NCBI GenBank assembly: GCA_028693955.1
Contig: JAQUUH010000007.1
Coordinates: 1 to 45,449 of the forward strand
Length of the DNA stretch: 45,449 nt
Reading direction: 5' to 3'
From: Bacilli bacterium
Lineage (GTDB): Bacteria; Bacillota_I; Bacilli_A; RFN20; UBA1709
Part shown: one piece after another, positions 19,133-40,223 of the stretch
Position numbering within the stretch: position 1 is the stretch's first letter
Layout: each line of letters starts with the position of its first letter
Notes under the pieces: model-generated
Databases searched by the model: none
What the model saw: only the letters and a program-made list of their open reading frames with translations
What the model was told of the DNA's origin: nothing
Program-made: the position numbers and the translations under genes

Positions 19133-19146
19133 TTTAGTGATAAATT

Positions 19147-19289
19147 AAATAGGTGCATTATTGCATAAAAGGGAATAAAGTAAAAATCTTTAGCTGTCCC
19201 AGCAACTGTGATGCTGACGAAAAACAAAACCACTGATATTCGGGAAGGTGTTGAGTAGGAAGAAGCTAAGCCAGGAGACCTACCTATTT
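19147..19289 (+). ncRNA. Cobalamin riboswitch aptamer, upstream of B12 uptake genes
   Basis: This segment has the conserved cobalamin riboswitch elements in order: a closing P1 stem (AAATAGGT at 19147-19154 with ACCTATTT at 19282-19289), the AAAGGGAA segment, GCTGTCCCAGCAACTGTGAT, CCACTG, GGGAAGG, and the 3' box with AGCTAAGCCAGGAGACCTACC. The RNA senses cobalamin and would reduce expression of the downstream operon when the vitamin is plentiful. The expression platform (19290-19383) contains a possible terminator: AATCTTT at 19326-19332 pairs with AAAGATT at 19346-19352, followed by T residues. A competing pairing is GTATnnCCTGG with CCAGGTATAC. Confidence 0.93.
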
Positions 19290-19325
19290 TTTATCCATAA
19301 AGTATCTCCTGGGAATGGGACATTG

Positions 19326-29382: not shown

Positions 29383-29405
29383 CATAATTGTAGGCGGTGA
29401 TTGAT

Positions 29406-31127
29406 TTGTTGCTAGGCTATGTTGGAATATTTATTGGGTATATGTTACTTGTTTTTATTCCTTTAATTATATACATTATTTATCGTTTTTATTCTGAAAG
29501 GAAAAATAGTTTATCTAATAAAGTAATACTTGAAAGTAAGAGTAAAGAGATAAAAAATTTTAATGTTAGATTGGATTATAAAAATAAAAAAATTACTTAT
29601 TTTTGTCATAATTGTGAAATAGAACATGCAGATTATACTTTTAATGAACTTATGTCAATGATAAAAGATAAAAATAAAATAAAAGATTGGAATGAATGGA
29701 TTGATTCAATAGTAAATAATGATAAATTTGATATTGATTTTTTCTTGACCTTAAAAAAAGATATAGGATTTGCTCCAGTACTTTCAAAATTAACATATAA
29801 TTCGCTTGATAAAGATAAAGGAATTATATATTTAAAAGGATTCAATATTAAACAAGGCGACTTGATAAAAAGTAGAATAACCACAATAAATAGTTCTCCT
29901 GCATTTTCTTTTAGGTCTAGAATAAAAGGGCAAATAGAAAAGAATGCAAAAAATGATGGAATAATTATGATAATAAATTTTAATCTATATGATCTTATAA
30001 AAAGAAGATATTCTCAAAGTGAAGTCAAAACTTATTTAGCAACTTTGTGGGGGTTTTTTGAAAATTATGATGGGAAGAGTGATGTTGTTACTGGTATATA
30101 TAGATATGATAATGTTGTGGTTTACAATCCACATCTACATCATAAAAAAGAAATCGCTGAATATGTTGAATCTTTGCTTGATTCAATAGGTGATACAATA
30201 GCGTTTGATAATTTTCATTTTGAAATTAAGCCATGTGTAGGTTTTACAAAATTAGGCGAATTTACTGATAACATTGAGATTGCCCTAAAGCAAGCTTATA
30301 AAGTAGCATTAATTGCAAGAGAGCAAAATTTAAGAATTTTTGCCTATGATATAGAATTAGATAATAATGAAAAAGATAATTTAAAACTTATAGCAAAACT
30401 TAAAGACATGCTAGATAATAATTTACTAATTAATAAATATACCCCGGTCATTTCTCTTAGCAATGGAAATGAAATTGGATATTTTGCTGAGATTGATTTT
30501 AAAGAAACCAAGATTAAATCATTTTCTAATGCTTTAAAAATAGCTCAAGAAAATGGTTTTGAAAATGAATTTTTTGATGTTGCACTAGATAGTTGGTTTA
30601 GTAATTTTGTTTTTAAGCAAGATTATTCAAACAATAGACTATTTGTTTTTTGTGATTCAGATTTATTGAATGAATTTACAAGTGTTTATTTATCAAAAGA
30701 GGAATATAAAAAAGTTTCTTTAATTTTAGTAATAACAGATTATGAAGAATTAATATATGATCACGAAAGTATTGAAACAATTGAAAAAATAAGTAACAGT
30801 GGGATTCGTCTTGGTATAACAGCCTCACAAATAATGCAAACTACAGTTCATCAAATATTGAGAAAAATAGATTATTTAGTATGGCCAGTTAAGTTGACAA
30901 AAAATATTTTGAAAGATGAAAAAAATAAATTAATTGTTAATAATATCATTGAATCTTTAAATAATTATAATCTTATTTCAGTAGCATGGAATATAGCAAA
31001 TTATCAGCAAGCAGAGTACTTAAAAAATATTGGAATTATGAATATGTCAGGTTTGCTTTTTGAAAAAGGGAATAGTGTTGCAAGTGAAATATATTCTATT
31101 CGAAGATTAAATAAATTAATTGGGTGA
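29406..31127 (+). CDS. Membrane protein with degenerate GGDEF and EAL domains
   Basis: This 573-residue protein has one N-terminal membrane helix (about residues 3-28). A cytoplasmic PAS-like region follows (about 45-150, with KKITYFCHNCEIE). A GGDEF-like domain covers about 165-320: the signature position reads YRYDNVVVY instead of GGDEF, although the late GFTKLGEF and final AYD segments are recognisable. The remainder is EAL-like. There the EAL motif reads YFAEID, the DDFG stretch reads GITASQ, the KID position reads VKLTKN and the AEGVE position reads VAWNIA. All catalytic residues for making or cleaving cyclic di-GMP therefore appear lost. The start is TTG, eight bases after a near-perfect ribosome binding site; a GTG at 29397 lies within that site. 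A ProRS-like gene follows four bases later. Sensor or scaffold role inferred. Confidence 0.72.
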   Translation: MLLGYVGIFIGYMLLVFIPLIIYIIYRFYSERKNSLSNKVILESKSKEIKNFNVRLDYKNKKITYFCHNCEIEHADYTFNELMSMIKDKNKIKDWNEWIDSIVNNDKFDIDFFLTLKKDIGFAPVLSKLTYNSLDKDKGIIYLKGFNIKQGDLIKSRITTINSSPAFSFRSRIKGQIEKNAKNDGIIMIINFNLYDLIKRRYSQSEVKTYLATLWGFFENYDGKSDVVTGIYRYDNVVVYNPHLHHKKEIAEYVESLLDSIGDTIAFDNFHFEIKPCVGFTKLGEFTDNIEIALKQAYKVALIAREQNLRIFAYDIELDNNEKDNLKLIAKLKDMLDNNLLINKYTPVISLSNGNEIGYFAEIDFKETKIKSFSNALKIAQENGFENEFFDVALDSWFSNFVFKQDYSNNRLFVFCDSDLLNEFTSVYLSKEEYKKVSLILVITDYEELIYDHESIETIEKISNSGIRLGITASQIMQTTVHQILRKIDYLVWPVKLTKNILKDEKNKLIVNNIIESLNNYNLISVAWNIANYQQAEYLKNIGIMNMSGLLFEKGNSVASEIYSIRRLNKLIG

Positions 31128-31131
31128 AAAC

Positions 31132-32259
31132 ATGAATAGTTTAAATAAAATGTTGTGCGAAATATCTTTTGCTACCAGATTAAATGGTGAAGTTTTACTT
31201 CTAGATTATGGCAGTAGTGTTTTTGATAATATATTGAGTATGATAGATGAAAAATTAATTTTAACTAATCATAAAAAAATTAAAACTTCAAAAGGTGACT
31301 GTCAAATTGCTAGTAAAAATGGCGCGCCTAAATCTTTGTTTTTTGACTATATAAGAAAAGTTGGATCCACAAAATATTTTTCAAGAGAAGTTGAGGCATA
31401 TTTTAAAGAAATTCAACCAGCAAGACATGAACAATTACAAAATGTTGAATTGTTTTCTAGGGTTATTAAAGAAATAATCAATCTTCCTATTATTAGTGGC
31501 AAACTTTTAATTAACAAGGATGAAACTTATTATATTGGGGTCATAACTTCTAAAGGAATAATTGAGATAGCAAGATCAATTTTAAAAAAGGATGAAAATG
31601 GCTATTATGTTAGGAGTTATTTTTTAAGTAAAATATTAGATGCCATTGCAATTTATAGTAATGATGAAGAAGGAGTAATTTTATCTCCAGCAATAGCTCC
31701 ATATCTTGCGGTTATAATACCTATCAATATCGCTCAAAAAGGTGTTAATAAAAAGTGTAAAGAACTTTTAGATAAACTAGAAAAAAAAGGATTAAAAGTT
31801 CTTTATGATGAAACCAGTGAAACCCATACAAAAAAGCATGAATATTATCTAAAAATTGGGGTGCCACTTATAATTGAAATAGGTATAAAAGATGTTGAAG
31901 GGAATTCTCTTAATTTATTTGTTAGGTTTAATAAAGAATTTATAAGAATTGATACAAAATTATTTGTTGATGATATAGAATTATATTTAACTAAAATGCA
32001 GAATGATTTATATAAAAAAGCACTTACTTTTACTGTTAATTCAATTAGAAATTCTTCTGATTTTACAAACGATAAATGTGTTAATGTAATCACAAAAATT
32101 CAATGTTGTGATAAAGAAAAGTGCTTAGAAAAACTTAAAAAAATGAAAGATAGAGTAATATTAGTTCCATTTAATCAAAACTCTAACAGCAATTGTTATT
32201 TTTGTAATTCTAGTGAGTGTGATAGTTATTATTTAATTAAGAAATATAAAAGTGTATAA
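31132..32259 (+). CDS. Degenerate prolyl-tRNA synthetase-like protein
   Basis: This 375-residue protein resembles archaeal-type (type 3) prolyl-tRNA synthetase but is about 100 residues shorter. The segment EGVILSPAIAPYLAVIIPI near residue 185 matches the junction into the anticodon-binding domain. It is followed by the KGLKVLYDETSETHTKKH, GVPLIIEIGIKDVEGN and C-terminal zinc-domain features (CCDKEKC, then CYFC, ending LIKKYKSV). The N-terminal part keeps the motif-1-like LLLDYGSSVFDNI, but the region of class II motif 2, the proline pocket and motif 3 is shrunk or replaced. Aminoacylation is therefore unlikely. It follows the degenerate GGDEF-EAL gene by four bases. Function unknown; tRNA binding or regulation is inferred. 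Confidence 0.7.
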   Translation: MNSLNKMLCEISFATRLNGEVLLLDYGSSVFDNILSMIDEKLILTNHKKIKTSKGDCQIASKNGAPKSLFFDYIRKVGSTKYFSREVEAYFKEIQPARHEQLQNVELFSRVIKEIINLPIISGKLLINKDETYYIGVITSKGIIEIARSILKKDENGYYVRSYFLSKILDAIAIYSNDEEGVILSPAIAPYLAVIIPINIAQKGVNKKCKELLDKLEKKGLKVLYDETSETHTKKHEYYLKIGVPLIIEIGIKDVEGNSLNLFVRFNKEFIRIDTKLFVDDIELYLTKMQNDLYKKALTFTVNSIRNSSDFTNDKCVNVITKIQCCDKEKCLEKLKKMKDRVILVPFNQNSNSNCYFCNSSECDSYYLIKKYKSV

Positions 32260-32317: not shown

Positions 32318-33517
32318 ATGGTTCCACATTTTAGACATAAAGCCTTCAACAAGATACTTAAACCCTTTATACGGGCTTTCCTTTTTTGCTTTTATGGATA
32401 TAAAGCAAAAGTCTATAAAAATTTGAAGGAAAACTATTTAATTATATCTAACCATGTGACCCAAATTGATCCAATAATGTTATCACTTTCTTTTAAAAAG
32501 CCAATTTATTTTGTTGCAAGTGATGACATTTTTTCTATAAAAATAATTAGTTCTTTATTAGAATATTTTATGTCACCGATTTCTAAAACTAAAAATGAAA
32601 TTGATATTTCAACTACAAAAAACATTATTTCTATGATGAAAAATGGTGGATCTGTAGGTATATTTATTTCTGGTAATGCTACATATTCCGGAGTTGAAGA
32701 ATATATACCAAGTCCAATAGCAAGATTAGTAAAAAAAATTGGTAAGCCATTAATTTTGTATAACATAATCGGTTGTTATGGAGTTGCACCACGGTGGGGT
32801 GAAAAATTAAGAAAAGGAAAGTGTTCTGGGCAAATAAAAAGGATAATTTTACCTAGTGAATATAACAATATGACAGATGAAGAATTAGATGAAATAATTA
32901 AAAATGAAATTAATGTTGATGCTTTAAAAAATGATAATAGATATTATAATTGTAAAAATAGAGCTCATTTTTTAGAAAGAGCATTATTTGTTTGTCCAGA
33001 TTGTGGAAGTATTGGAAGCCTGAAAAGTGAAAAAAATAGTATAAGGTGTGAAAAATGTGGTTATGAAGCTGAATATCAAGAAGATTTAACGTTCAAATTA
33101 ATAAAAGGGAAAATTCATTTTCATAGTGTCAAACAATGGTATGATTATCAAAAAGGTTATTTATATGATTTTGATTATGATAAATACGAAGATGAAGATC
33201 CAATAAAAATTGATAATGATATTTATTTTATTTTAAATCATAGATTAAAACATAAAGAGACTTTGATTTTTAAAGGACAATCTCGTTTATATAAAAATAG
33301 AATTGAGATTGAAAAAAATGATGCTAAAATAACTTTGAACTTTACTGATATAAAATCAATGAGTGTTCAAGGTAAAAATAAATTATTATTACATGTCGAT
33401 GATAAATATTATCAGATACGCGGAAATAAAAGAAGAAGTGGAGTATTATATATGTTTATTTATTACTCACTAAAAAACAAGAAAGAGGGTAAATGCAATG
33501 GTTTTTTGGGAATATGA
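32318..33517 (+). CDS. PlsC-like acyltransferase with C-terminal zinc ribbon, motif III degenerate
   Basis: This 399-residue protein starts with a lysophospholipid acyltransferase domain (about residues 1-190) carrying the catalytic NHVTQID motif (H46 and D51). The usual FPEG substrate-binding motif reads FISG (116-119), so the conserved glutamate is missing. A four-cysteine zinc ribbon follows (C226, C229, C244, C247), then a WYDYQ segment and a C-terminal domain of about 90 residues with alternating strands that looks PH/GRAM-like. A paralogue with intact motifs (YPEG) is at 44512. The gene overlaps the following GltS gene by 20 bases. Acyl transfer may be impaired or altered. Confidence 0.8.
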   Translation: MVPHFRHKAFNKILKPFIRAFLFCFYGYKAKVYKNLKENYLIISNHVTQIDPIMLSLSFKKPIYFVASDDIFSIKIISSLLEYFMSPISKTKNEIDISTTKNIISMMKNGGSVGIFISGNATYSGVEEYIPSPIARLVKKIGKPLILYNIIGCYGVAPRWGEKLRKGKCSGQIKRIILPSEYNNMTDEELDEIIKNEINVDALKNDNRYYNCKNRAHFLERALFVCPDCGSIGSLKSEKNSIRCEKCGYEAEYQEDLTFKLIKGKIHFHSVKQWYDYQKGYLYDFDYDKYEDEDPIKIDNDIYFILNHRLKHKETLIFKGQSRLYKNRIEIEKNDAKITLNFTDIKSMSVQGKNKLLLHVDDKYYQIRGNKRRSGVLYMFIYYSLKNKKEGKCNGFLGI

Positions 33518-37845: not shown

Positions 37846-37864
37846 CAATGGCACATATGTGATG

Positions 37865-38013
37865 GTATGAGTGTAAAACTTAAAAGGGAAACAGGTTGAA
37901 TTCCTGTGCGGTCCCGCCGCCGTAATGATGAGAGTGTATGTATAACTCACTGGTACTTAGTATTGGGAAGAGACATATACTTGTTGAATCTAAGCCGGAA
38001 GACCTGCTTATAC
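37865..38013 (+). ncRNA. Cobalamin riboswitch aptamer, upstream of nrdDG
   Basis: Conserved cobalamin riboswitch elements appear in order: closing stem GTATGAG (37865-37871) with CTTATAC (38007-38013), AAAAGGGAA, the ACAGG...CCTGT stem, GCGGTCCCGCCGCCGTAAT, CACTGG, TTGGGAAG, and the 3' box CTAAGCCGGAAGACCTGC. The expression platform (38014-38132) includes a CTCCACGGAG hairpin, a GC-rich hairpin with T-run and a CTCCATGGAG palindrome near the ribosome binding site. It is expected to lower nrdDG expression when adenosylcobalamin is plentiful. Confidence 0.94.
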
Positions 38014-38063
38014 TTATCTCGCCTCCACGGAGTATGGTTGTAGCGGGTATGCGGTTTTTTTGC

Positions 38064-38132: not shown

Positions 38133-40223
38133 ATGAAGCAGGTTAGAAAAAGAAATGGTGATGTCGTTCAGTTTTATCAAGAGAAAATAACTTGGGCAAT
38201 CTTCAAAGCGGCAAACGCAGTTGGAGGTAATGATTGGAGTAAGTCTCAAAAATTATGTACTCAAGTTGTTGAAATTGTAGATAAAAGACATCCTGAAGGA
38301 ATCGCAGATGTTGAAGAAATTCAAGATATAATAGAAAAAGTATTGATAGAAAATGGGCATGCTCAGACTGCAAAAGCCTTTATTTTATATCGAGAAAAAA
38401 GGGCTGAAGCTAGAAATGCTAATGCATTAATAGGCGCTACAATTGAAATGTTCACCAATTATATGAGTGATAAAGATTGGCAAGTAAAAGAAAATGCCAA
38501 TACTCAAAAAAGTATAAATGGTTTAAATAATTACATAAGAGAAATTTTTACCAAGCAATATTGGTTATATGAAGTATATCCTGAAGAAATAAGAAATGCC
38601 CATTTAAGTGGTGATTTTCATATGCATGATTTAGGGTTTTTTGGAGCATATTGTGCTGGTTGGGATTTAAAATTATTACTTGTTAATGGATTTGGTGGAG
38701 TTTCTGGAAAGGTTGAATCAAAACCTGCAAAACATTTAAGGTCTTTTTTGGGGCAAATAGTTAATTCTACATTTACAACTCAAGGAGAAACAGCAGGTGC
38801 TCAAGCATGGTCTTCTTTTGATACATATTGTGCTCCATTTGTTCGCTATGACAATTTGGATTACAAAGCAGTTAAACAAGCATTGCAAGAATTTGTTTTT
38901 AATTTAAATGTTCCTACAAGAGTAGGATTTCAATGTCCTTTTTCAAATTTAACATTTGATATTGTTGTTCCAAAAACTTTAAAAGATCAAAATGTTATTG
39001 TCGGCGGGGAAATTAAACAAGAAAAATATGGGGATTTTCAACAAGAAATGGACATGATAAACAAGGCTTTTTGTGAGGTAATGATGGAAGGCGATAAGCT
39101 TGGCAGAGTATTTACTTTTCCAATTCCTACTATAAATGTCACAAAAGAATTTTCTTGGGATAGTGATGTAGTTAATAAATTTATGGAAATTTCATGTAAA
39201 TATGGAATACCATATTTTTCCAATTATGTTAATTCTGACCTTTCTCCAGAAGATGCATTATCAATGTGTTGTAGATTGCGTCTTGATACTAAAGAGTTAC
39301 GTAAAAGAGGAGGAGGACTTTTTGGATCTAATCCTTTAACAGGATCAATAGGTGTTGTTACCATTAATCTTCCACGAATTGGATATATAGCAAAAGATAT
39401 TAATGAATTTAAAGGAAGACTTTGGAAAGTTATTCATCTTGCCAAGAATTCTTTGGAAATTAAAAGAAAAATAATAGAACAGCAGACAGAAAATGGAATG
39501 TATCCATATTGTGCAAGTTATCTAAAAGATGTGAAAAATAGGTTTGGATCTTATTGGTATAATCATTTTAGTACAATAGGATTAATAGGAATGAATGAAG
39601 CTTGTGAAAACTTTATGGGCAAGGATATAACAACAAAAGAAGGTCAAGAGTTTGCACTTGATATTCTAAAATATATGCGTGAAGAAATAATTAAAATACA
39701 AGAAGAAACAAAGCATTACTATAATCTTGAGGCCACTCCTGCTGAAGGAACAAGTTATAGATTAGCAAAATTAGATAAAGAAAAATATAAAGATATAATT
39801 TGTCGTGGTGAAGAAACACCTTATTACACAAATTCTTCACAATTACCAGTAAGTTTTACTGATGATATTTTTGAAACTCTAGATTTACAAGATGATTTGC
39901 AATGCCAATATACGGGTGGGACAGTTTTACACCTATATTTAGGAGAGCAAATTGATGATGTTAGTGTTGCAAAAAGATTGATTCAAAAAATATTTAATAA
40001 ATATAAAATGCCTTACATATCATTAACTCCAACATTTTCTATATGTCAAAATCATGGTTATATAAAAGGAGAACATTTCACTTGTCCAATATGCAAAGAA
40101 AAGACCGAGGTCTGGAGTCGAGTGGTTGGTTATTTACGCCCTGTTGAAAATTTTCATGTTGGCAAAAAAGAAGAATATAAAGAGCGTTTAAAATACACTC
40201 TTAAAAAGGAAGAGTTAAAATAA
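38133..40223 (+). CDS. nrdD: Anaerobic (class III) ribonucleoside-triphosphate reductase
   Basis: NrdD reduces ribonucleotides to deoxyribonucleotides using a glycyl radical, and works only without oxygen. The 696-residue protein has an N-terminal ATP-cone (about residues 1-95, RKRNGDVVQFYQEKITWAI), the catalytic barrel, a C-terminal zinc site (ICQNHGY, then TCPIC) and the glycyl radical loop RVVGYLRP with G666. The ATG at 38133 follows TGGAGGAATT; the frame stays open far upstream only by chance, through the riboswitch. It overlaps nrdG by one base. A cobalamin riboswitch precedes it although the enzyme itself needs no B12. Confidence 0.96.
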   Translation: MKQVRKRNGDVVQFYQEKITWAIFKAANAVGGNDWSKSQKLCTQVVEIVDKRHPEGIADVEEIQDIIEKVLIENGHAQTAKAFILYREKRAEARNANALIGATIEMFTNYMSDKDWQVKENANTQKSINGLNNYIREIFTKQYWLYEVYPEEIRNAHLSGDFHMHDLGFFGAYCAGWDLKLLLVNGFGGVSGKVESKPAKHLRSFLGQIVNSTFTTQGETAGAQAWSSFDTYCAPFVRYDNLDYKAVKQALQEFVFNLNVPTRVGFQCPFSNLTFDIVVPKTLKDQNVIVGGEIKQEKYGDFQQEMDMINKAFCEVMMEGDKLGRVFTFPIPTINVTKEFSWDSDVVNKFMEISCKYGIPYFSNYVNSDLSPEDALSMCCRLRLDTKELRKRGGGLFGSNPLTGSIGVVTINLPRIGYIAKDINEFKGRLWKVIHLAKNSLEIKRKIIEQQTENGMYPYCASYLKDVKNRFGSYWYNHFSTIGLIGMNEACENFMGKDITTKEGQEFALDILKYMREEIIKIQEETKHYYNLEATPAEGTSYRLAKLDKEKYKDIICRGEETPYYTNSSQLPVSFTDDIFETLDLQDDLQCQYTGGTVLHLYLGEQIDDVSVAKRLIQKIFNKYKMPYISLTPTFSICQNHGYIKGEHFTCPICKEKTEVWSRVVGYLRPVENFHVGKKEEYKERLKYTLKKEELK

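Follow-up and report, generated by a model that had tools for sequence, protein, structure and literature searches.

A degenerate prolyl-tRNA synthetase gene

The window, a stretch of 45,449 nucleotides forming contig JAQUUH010000007.1 of the Bacilli bacterium assembly GCA_028693955.1 (hereafter, G000), contains an open reading frame (ORF) related to prolyl-tRNA synthetase (ProRS) that lies directly downstream of a gene for an EAL-like protein. We refer to archaeal/eukaryal-type ProRS as E-type, to bacterial-type ProRS as P-type, and to the degenerate protein described here and its relatives as pseudo-ProRS. The features of the locus are as follows.

29397–31127, forward strand: EAL-like gene, 576 aa, with an N-terminal hydrophobic segment and a degenerate EAL domain
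31132–32259, forward strand: pseudo-ProRS ORF, ATG at 31132, stop codon TAA at 32257–32259, 375 aa plus stop
31132–31701, forward strand: reduced class II core, residues 1–190, from the conserved-residue alignment and the structural model
31702–32007, forward strand: anticodon-binding domain, residues about 191–292, fold retained, no Glu340, Ile in place of Arg347 (Thermus thermophilus numbering)
32008–32256, forward strand: C-terminal ProRS domain, with Cys 326, 331, 355 and 358 and a PFNQ motif, lacking the C-terminal Tyr of active enzymes

The ORF was confirmed as genuine and coding-like. A stop-free frame of 375 codons has a chance probability of about 4 × 10−16 at the base composition of the window, and the GC contents at the three codon positions (0.35/0.27/0.14) agree with those of adjacent genes; a TTG start option 12 bases upstream of the ATG would yield a protein of 379 aa. 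An artefact or a split gene was rejected as an explanation because the frame is uninterrupted and other genomes show the same architecture.

The sequence-only reading had described a degenerate E-type ProRS with a catalytic half compressed by about 100 residues, and both statements were borne out: the ORF is confirmed as a relative of E-type ProRS with a degenerate catalytic half. The motifs quoted in that reading are present. Motif 2, the proline pocket and motif 3 have been lost, and the intact enzyme of the same family, at 478 aa, exceeds the protein by 103 residues. Pfam searches matched HGTP_anticodon (E = 2.8 × 10−13) and no class II core domain, while the intact enzyme of a relative matched all three ProRS domains. 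The E-type profile TIGR00408 aligned window residues 161–370 with profile positions 252–473 (E = 8 × 10−23) at 81 bits, far below the curated cut-off of 437 bits and thus not a full-length match. Among NCBIfam matches ProRS came first, followed by GlyRS and ThrRS, with no match to HisZ or HisRS, and all PDB sequence matches were to ProRS or related class IIa enzymes. PADLOC found no match.

Other features of the window include a protein that combines an acyltransferase domain with a following zinc-ribbon-like CxxC pair (32318–33517), an unusual combination, and two cobalamin riboswitches (19134–19301 and 37852–38025). The second overlaps the listed start (37938) of an anaerobic ribonucleotide reductase ORF, so that the true reductase start is probably an ATG near 38134.

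Retained fold and lost active site

We compared the window protein with the residues shared by at least 95% of a set of 20 intact relatives, using region boundaries assigned in this analysis. Only 4 of 23 such residues were kept in motif 2, 4 of 29 in the proline-pocket region and 3 of 22 in motif 3, compared with 16 of 30 in the anticodon-binding domain and 12 of 34 in the C-terminal domain. The latter include all four zinc cysteines, and by sequence this is a predicted zinc domain; eight of the ten pseudo-ProRS that we identified (see below) retain these four cysteines, with a CxxC variant in G040 and none of the four in G042. The motif 3 Arg is replaced by Lys in the window protein and by Asp, Asn or Lys in the others. 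In ProRS a C-terminal Tyr stabilises the active site (PMC12152171); an aligner can place a Tyr in the window C-terminus, KKYKSV, yet three residues come after it, and the C-terminal Tyr is absent from the other nine proteins.

An AlphaFold model of the window protein (pLDDT 81.5, pTM 0.77) retains the motif 1 helix and the antiparallel sheet of the class II core, with the motif 2 loop and the proline-pocket loops deleted. Residues 54–81, the site of the lost motif 2 and its preceding loop, are predicted to be disordered, and the anticodon-binding domain is modeled with pLDDT above 90. Foldseek returned ProRS as the best matches of this model, with TM-scores of 0.75–0.81. The most reduced family member (G038, 329 aa) gave a model of pLDDT 89.6 and pTM 0.84 in which the elements follow one another as in the window protein, and which also matched ProRS structures. 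The ProRS fold is thus matched by prediction and a complete class II active site is not seen in Pfam searches, the conserved-residue alignment or the model, in keeping with the earlier prediction that the protein should not aminoacylate; we consider catalysis by pseudo-ProRS very unlikely.

Replacement by a P-type ProRS

The sequence-only reading had also anticipated a separate intact proS in the same genome. Contig 18 of G000 (910 kb, 95% complete) encodes one, a P-type ProRS of 567 aa (TIGR00409, 616 bits) that has the canonical motifs 2 and 3 as well as domains for the class II core, editing and anticodon binding; a search for an intact E-type ProRS in G000 found none. Across 279 genomes of the order, 239 have an E-type ProRS, 26 a P-type ProRS and three both. 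All ten genomes with a pseudo-ProRS fall within the 23 that have the P-type enzyme alone, and all ten lack an intact E-type ProRS.

In the P-type ProRS tree, G000 and G001 (family f1) group with families f17 and f25, and the enzymes of f3 and f7 make up a second clade; each grouping has 100/100 support. The P-type enzymes of the two clades are 43–48% identical to each other. Intact E-type enzymes from f1 (G003) and f3 (G032), by comparison, are 68% identical, indicating separate acquisitions of the P-type genes. Genomes with an intact E-type ProRS also occur in both f1 and f3.

The three genomes in which both types score above the cut-off (G084, G155 and G262, all of family f5) likely represent an intermediate state. 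One genome of family f17 (G454, locus L101) has E-type and P-type proS genes separated by about 2 kb and may show a displacement in progress.

Distribution and divergence of pseudo-ProRS

Profile searches identified nine further pseudo-ProRS in the order. Eight come from genus g13 (family f3; 329–368 aa), where every sampled genome has one, and the ninth comes from G277 (family f7; 370 aa) and was matched over its whole length (E = 1.9 × 10−43) by a profile built without it. No pseudo-ProRS was found in the other 13 P-type-only genomes (in G001 the contig breaks off within the EAL-like gene), indicating that the protein is dispensable. Sampling at the levels of class and phylum, which covered a total of about 700 distinct genomes, yielded no further case, within the reach of searches that could miss very divergent members. 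In a scan of a contig collection, the window protein had no match and the G039 protein matched only its own record.

Several candidates were rejected as family members. A 362-aa ORF in G002 belongs to an otherwise intact ProRS that a frameshift or stop has interrupted; the E-type proS of this 66% complete assembly is split into two ORFs (L004, 85–1521), probably through sequencing or assembly error. A short match in G098 is cut by a contig end, and frames of 315–330 aa in families f11 and f22 are ordinary enzymes interrupted by TGA codons.

Pseudo-ProRS evolve rapidly. Within g13, pairs of pseudo-ProRS are 17–32% identical, a divergence that is saturated in a sample without close strains, compared with 51–73% for nadE and 73–83% for P-type ProRS. 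The reading frame is open in all ten genomes (329–375 codons), and a pseudogene with a disrupted frame was rejected. Fast change in a protein that has yet kept its frame and fold suggests a retained function.

Probable retirement in place

The neighbors of pseudo-ProRS genes are those of intact E-type proS genes. In the window, the EAL-like gene stops 4 bases before the pseudo-ProRS start; in G003, of the same family, an EAL-like homologue ends five bases before an intact E-type proS, and such a homologue also precedes intact proS in several genomes of family f5. In G277 the EAL-like gene and the pseudo-ProRS share an overlap of 17 bases. Six of the eight g13 genomes have their pseudo-ProRS gene in divergent orientation to nadE, the same position that an intact proS occupies in G032, a member of the sister genus g11. 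These shared neighbors, the EAL-like gene or nadE, place each pseudo-ProRS at the proS locus of its lineage. The gene had been called a paralogue; derivation from ProRS stands, and origin as a duplicate was rejected because the gene occupies the ancestral proS locus and an intact E-type copy is absent. Pseudo-ProRS is better read as the displaced original E-type proS.

Other neighbors were also noted. The NAD synthetase beside proS or pseudo-proS (L041, 8222–10345, in G032; L121, 2–2131) carries an N-terminal Phd/YefM antitoxin-like domain (Pfam E = 6.5 × 10−10 in G032). Spore-coat genes (CotJB and Mn-catalase/CotJC-like; L134, 6299–7263; L122, 10069–11073) lie beside the pseudo-proS in G277 and near it in g13.

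Because the replacing P-type enzymes belong to two distant clades, the data support at least two independent retirements. A single origin of the family followed by spread would account for the loss of the same parts in all members and for the grouping of all pseudo-ProRS in the full tree, but the tree program flags that grouping as long branches meeting. We regard a single origin as unlikely, given that every copy is found at the proS locus of its own lineage, that the replacements come from far-apart clades and that f1 and f3 both retain genomes with the intact E-type enzyme. Trees of pseudo-ProRS are dominated by long branches, which makes placement uninformative, and an approximately unbiased (AU) test with a single pseudo-ProRS added rejected none of the placements tried.

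Proposed function

We propose, with a probability of about 55%, that pseudo-ProRS is a displaced E-type proS product kept as a folded, non-catalytic binding protein, with the EAL-like protein as a candidate partner. Under this account the ORF would be the E-type proS that the lineage had originally; a P-type ProRS gained by horizontal transfer would have taken over tRNA-Pro charging, after which the old gene could lose its catalytic loops and main anticodon-reading residues. The compact, folded protein that was retained may serve a binding or scaffold role through the half that comprises the anticodon-binding fold and the zinc domain. A folded pseudo-core, a hydrophobic substitution at a former RNA contact and a zinc domain together fit a protein-binding role.

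The putative partner is encoded by a fast-evolving gene that immediately precedes proS or pseudo-proS in families f1, f5 and f7 and specifies a membrane-anchored degenerate GGDEF/EAL protein (29397–31127 in the window; L037, 1671–3374; L134, 8440–10191; L118–L120). The pairing is conserved whether proS is intact or retired, with an adjacency older than the retirement, and the genes are translationally coupled; for these reasons the EAL-like protein is the best candidate partner. The case is weaker for g13, where the two genes lie apart and a search with one divergent query located the EAL-like gene elsewhere in three of eight genomes.

The main alternative is that the protein binds tRNA-Pro or another RNA, acting as a charging sensor or protecting tRNA in the manner of the HisRS-like domain of GCN2, and the sequence-only reading had raised tRNA-Pro binding or sensing of its charging as a possibility. 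The anticodon-binding fold is retained, and the window protein is basic, with a pI of 8.9 compared with 5.8–6.3 in intact relatives, although pI varies from 5.6 to 9.2 across the pseudo-ProRS family and charge is therefore not conserved. Anticodon recognition in T. thermophilus ProRS involves Glu340, Arg347, Glu349, Asp354 and Lys370 (PMC12037408). At the alignment-mapped positions, Glu349 is kept in eight of the ten pseudo-ProRS and Asp354 is Asp or Asn in nine, but Glu340 is lost in all ten, Arg347 is lost in nine, being replaced by Ile or Val, and the GWKF stretch is degraded. In addition, tRNA-Pro is served in these genomes by a P-type enzyme of separate descent. To judge from these residues, reading of the tRNA-Pro anticodon by pseudo-ProRS is unlikely, contrary to the earlier suggestion, and we consider an RNA-binding role in general improbable.

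Slightly less probable still is that pseudo-ProRS is a weakly selected relic without a specific function that is heading for loss. Its very fast sequence change, the loss of all four zinc cysteines in G042 and the 13 P-type genomes without such a gene are what would be expected of a relic, but ten genomes keep intact frames of 329–375 codons despite about 50% nadE divergence, the zinc cysteines and fold persist in most copies, and every sampled g13 genome retains the gene. A further reading, by analogy with HisZ, is that pseudo-ProRS regulates an enzyme of amino-acid biosynthesis, here of proline synthesis, as one of its subunits. HisZ is a class II synthetase relative that has lost aminoacylation and works as a non-catalytic subunit (PMC9437257). 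We consider such a role highly implausible for pseudo-ProRS: a search that found proB in 12 of 14 known genomes used as a control did not find it in the window genome or in seven of the eight g13 genomes (eight of nine checked, G277 being outside the set).

Returning to the displaced, non-catalytic binding protein, a broader extension is that replacement of E-type by P-type ProRS repeatedly left pseudo-synthetases that partner a membrane-anchored GGDEF/EAL-like regulator, and that the ancestral E-type ProRS already had a second, non-catalytic function. We offer this as a speculation that is more doubtful than the core proposal. If the retained part is functional, it would point to a moonlighting role already carried by intact E-type ProRS in these bacteria.

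Comparison with known systems

A 2022 review of duplicated synthetases has ProRSx of Streptomyces as its only ProRS entry (PMC9437257). Like pseudo-ProRS, ProRSx is a second ProRS gene besides the housekeeping one; unlike it, ProRSx is an active duplicate of the bacterial enzyme that charges a variant tRNA. Synthetase-derived non-enzymes as such are known, including HisZ and SLIMP (PMC9437257). HisZ differs from pseudo-ProRS in its descent from HisRS and its tie to HisG, whereas the parent of the window protein is ProRS and the matching partner, ProB, is absent. A SerRS-derived insect protein resembles pseudo-ProRS in being synthetase-derived and has a non-translational regulatory role (PMC9437257), but it originated in insects and is of unrelated origin. 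The literature that we searched contained no report of this form of pseudo-ProRS, and as far as it shows, a repeatedly arising, displacement-born E-type ProRS pseudoenzyme is new.

Two further groups differ in domain content. Unlike GCN2-type charging sensors, the 375-aa window protein has no kinase match in Pfam, and unlike the YbaK/ProXp trans-editing proteins it has no match to PF04073 (INS), which the P-type ProRS of G000 does have. POLG2, the accessory subunit of mitochondrial DNA polymerase gamma, is a class IIa synthetase-like pseudoenzyme with a core fold and an anticodon-binding domain that acts as a protein-binding subunit; it is alike by shared fold class alone and differs in parent lineage, in its eukaryotic organelle setting and in its role in DNA replication.

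The closest known system is the direct ancestor, E-type ProRS (TIGR00408), with which pseudo-ProRS shares a collinear anticodon-binding domain, the C-terminal zinc domain, the overall fold and the genomic locus, and from which it differs in lacking the active site, the proline pocket, the main anticodon contacts and the C-terminal Tyr. Annotation pipelines would label such proteins proline-tRNA ligase fragments, which would be misleading for surveys of essentiality and drug targets. Gene duplication is the usual explanation for synthetase-derived regulators. The route here appears to be different: an essential enzyme was displaced by a foreign counterpart, and the original, once freed, was kept without its active site, at least two times and independently.
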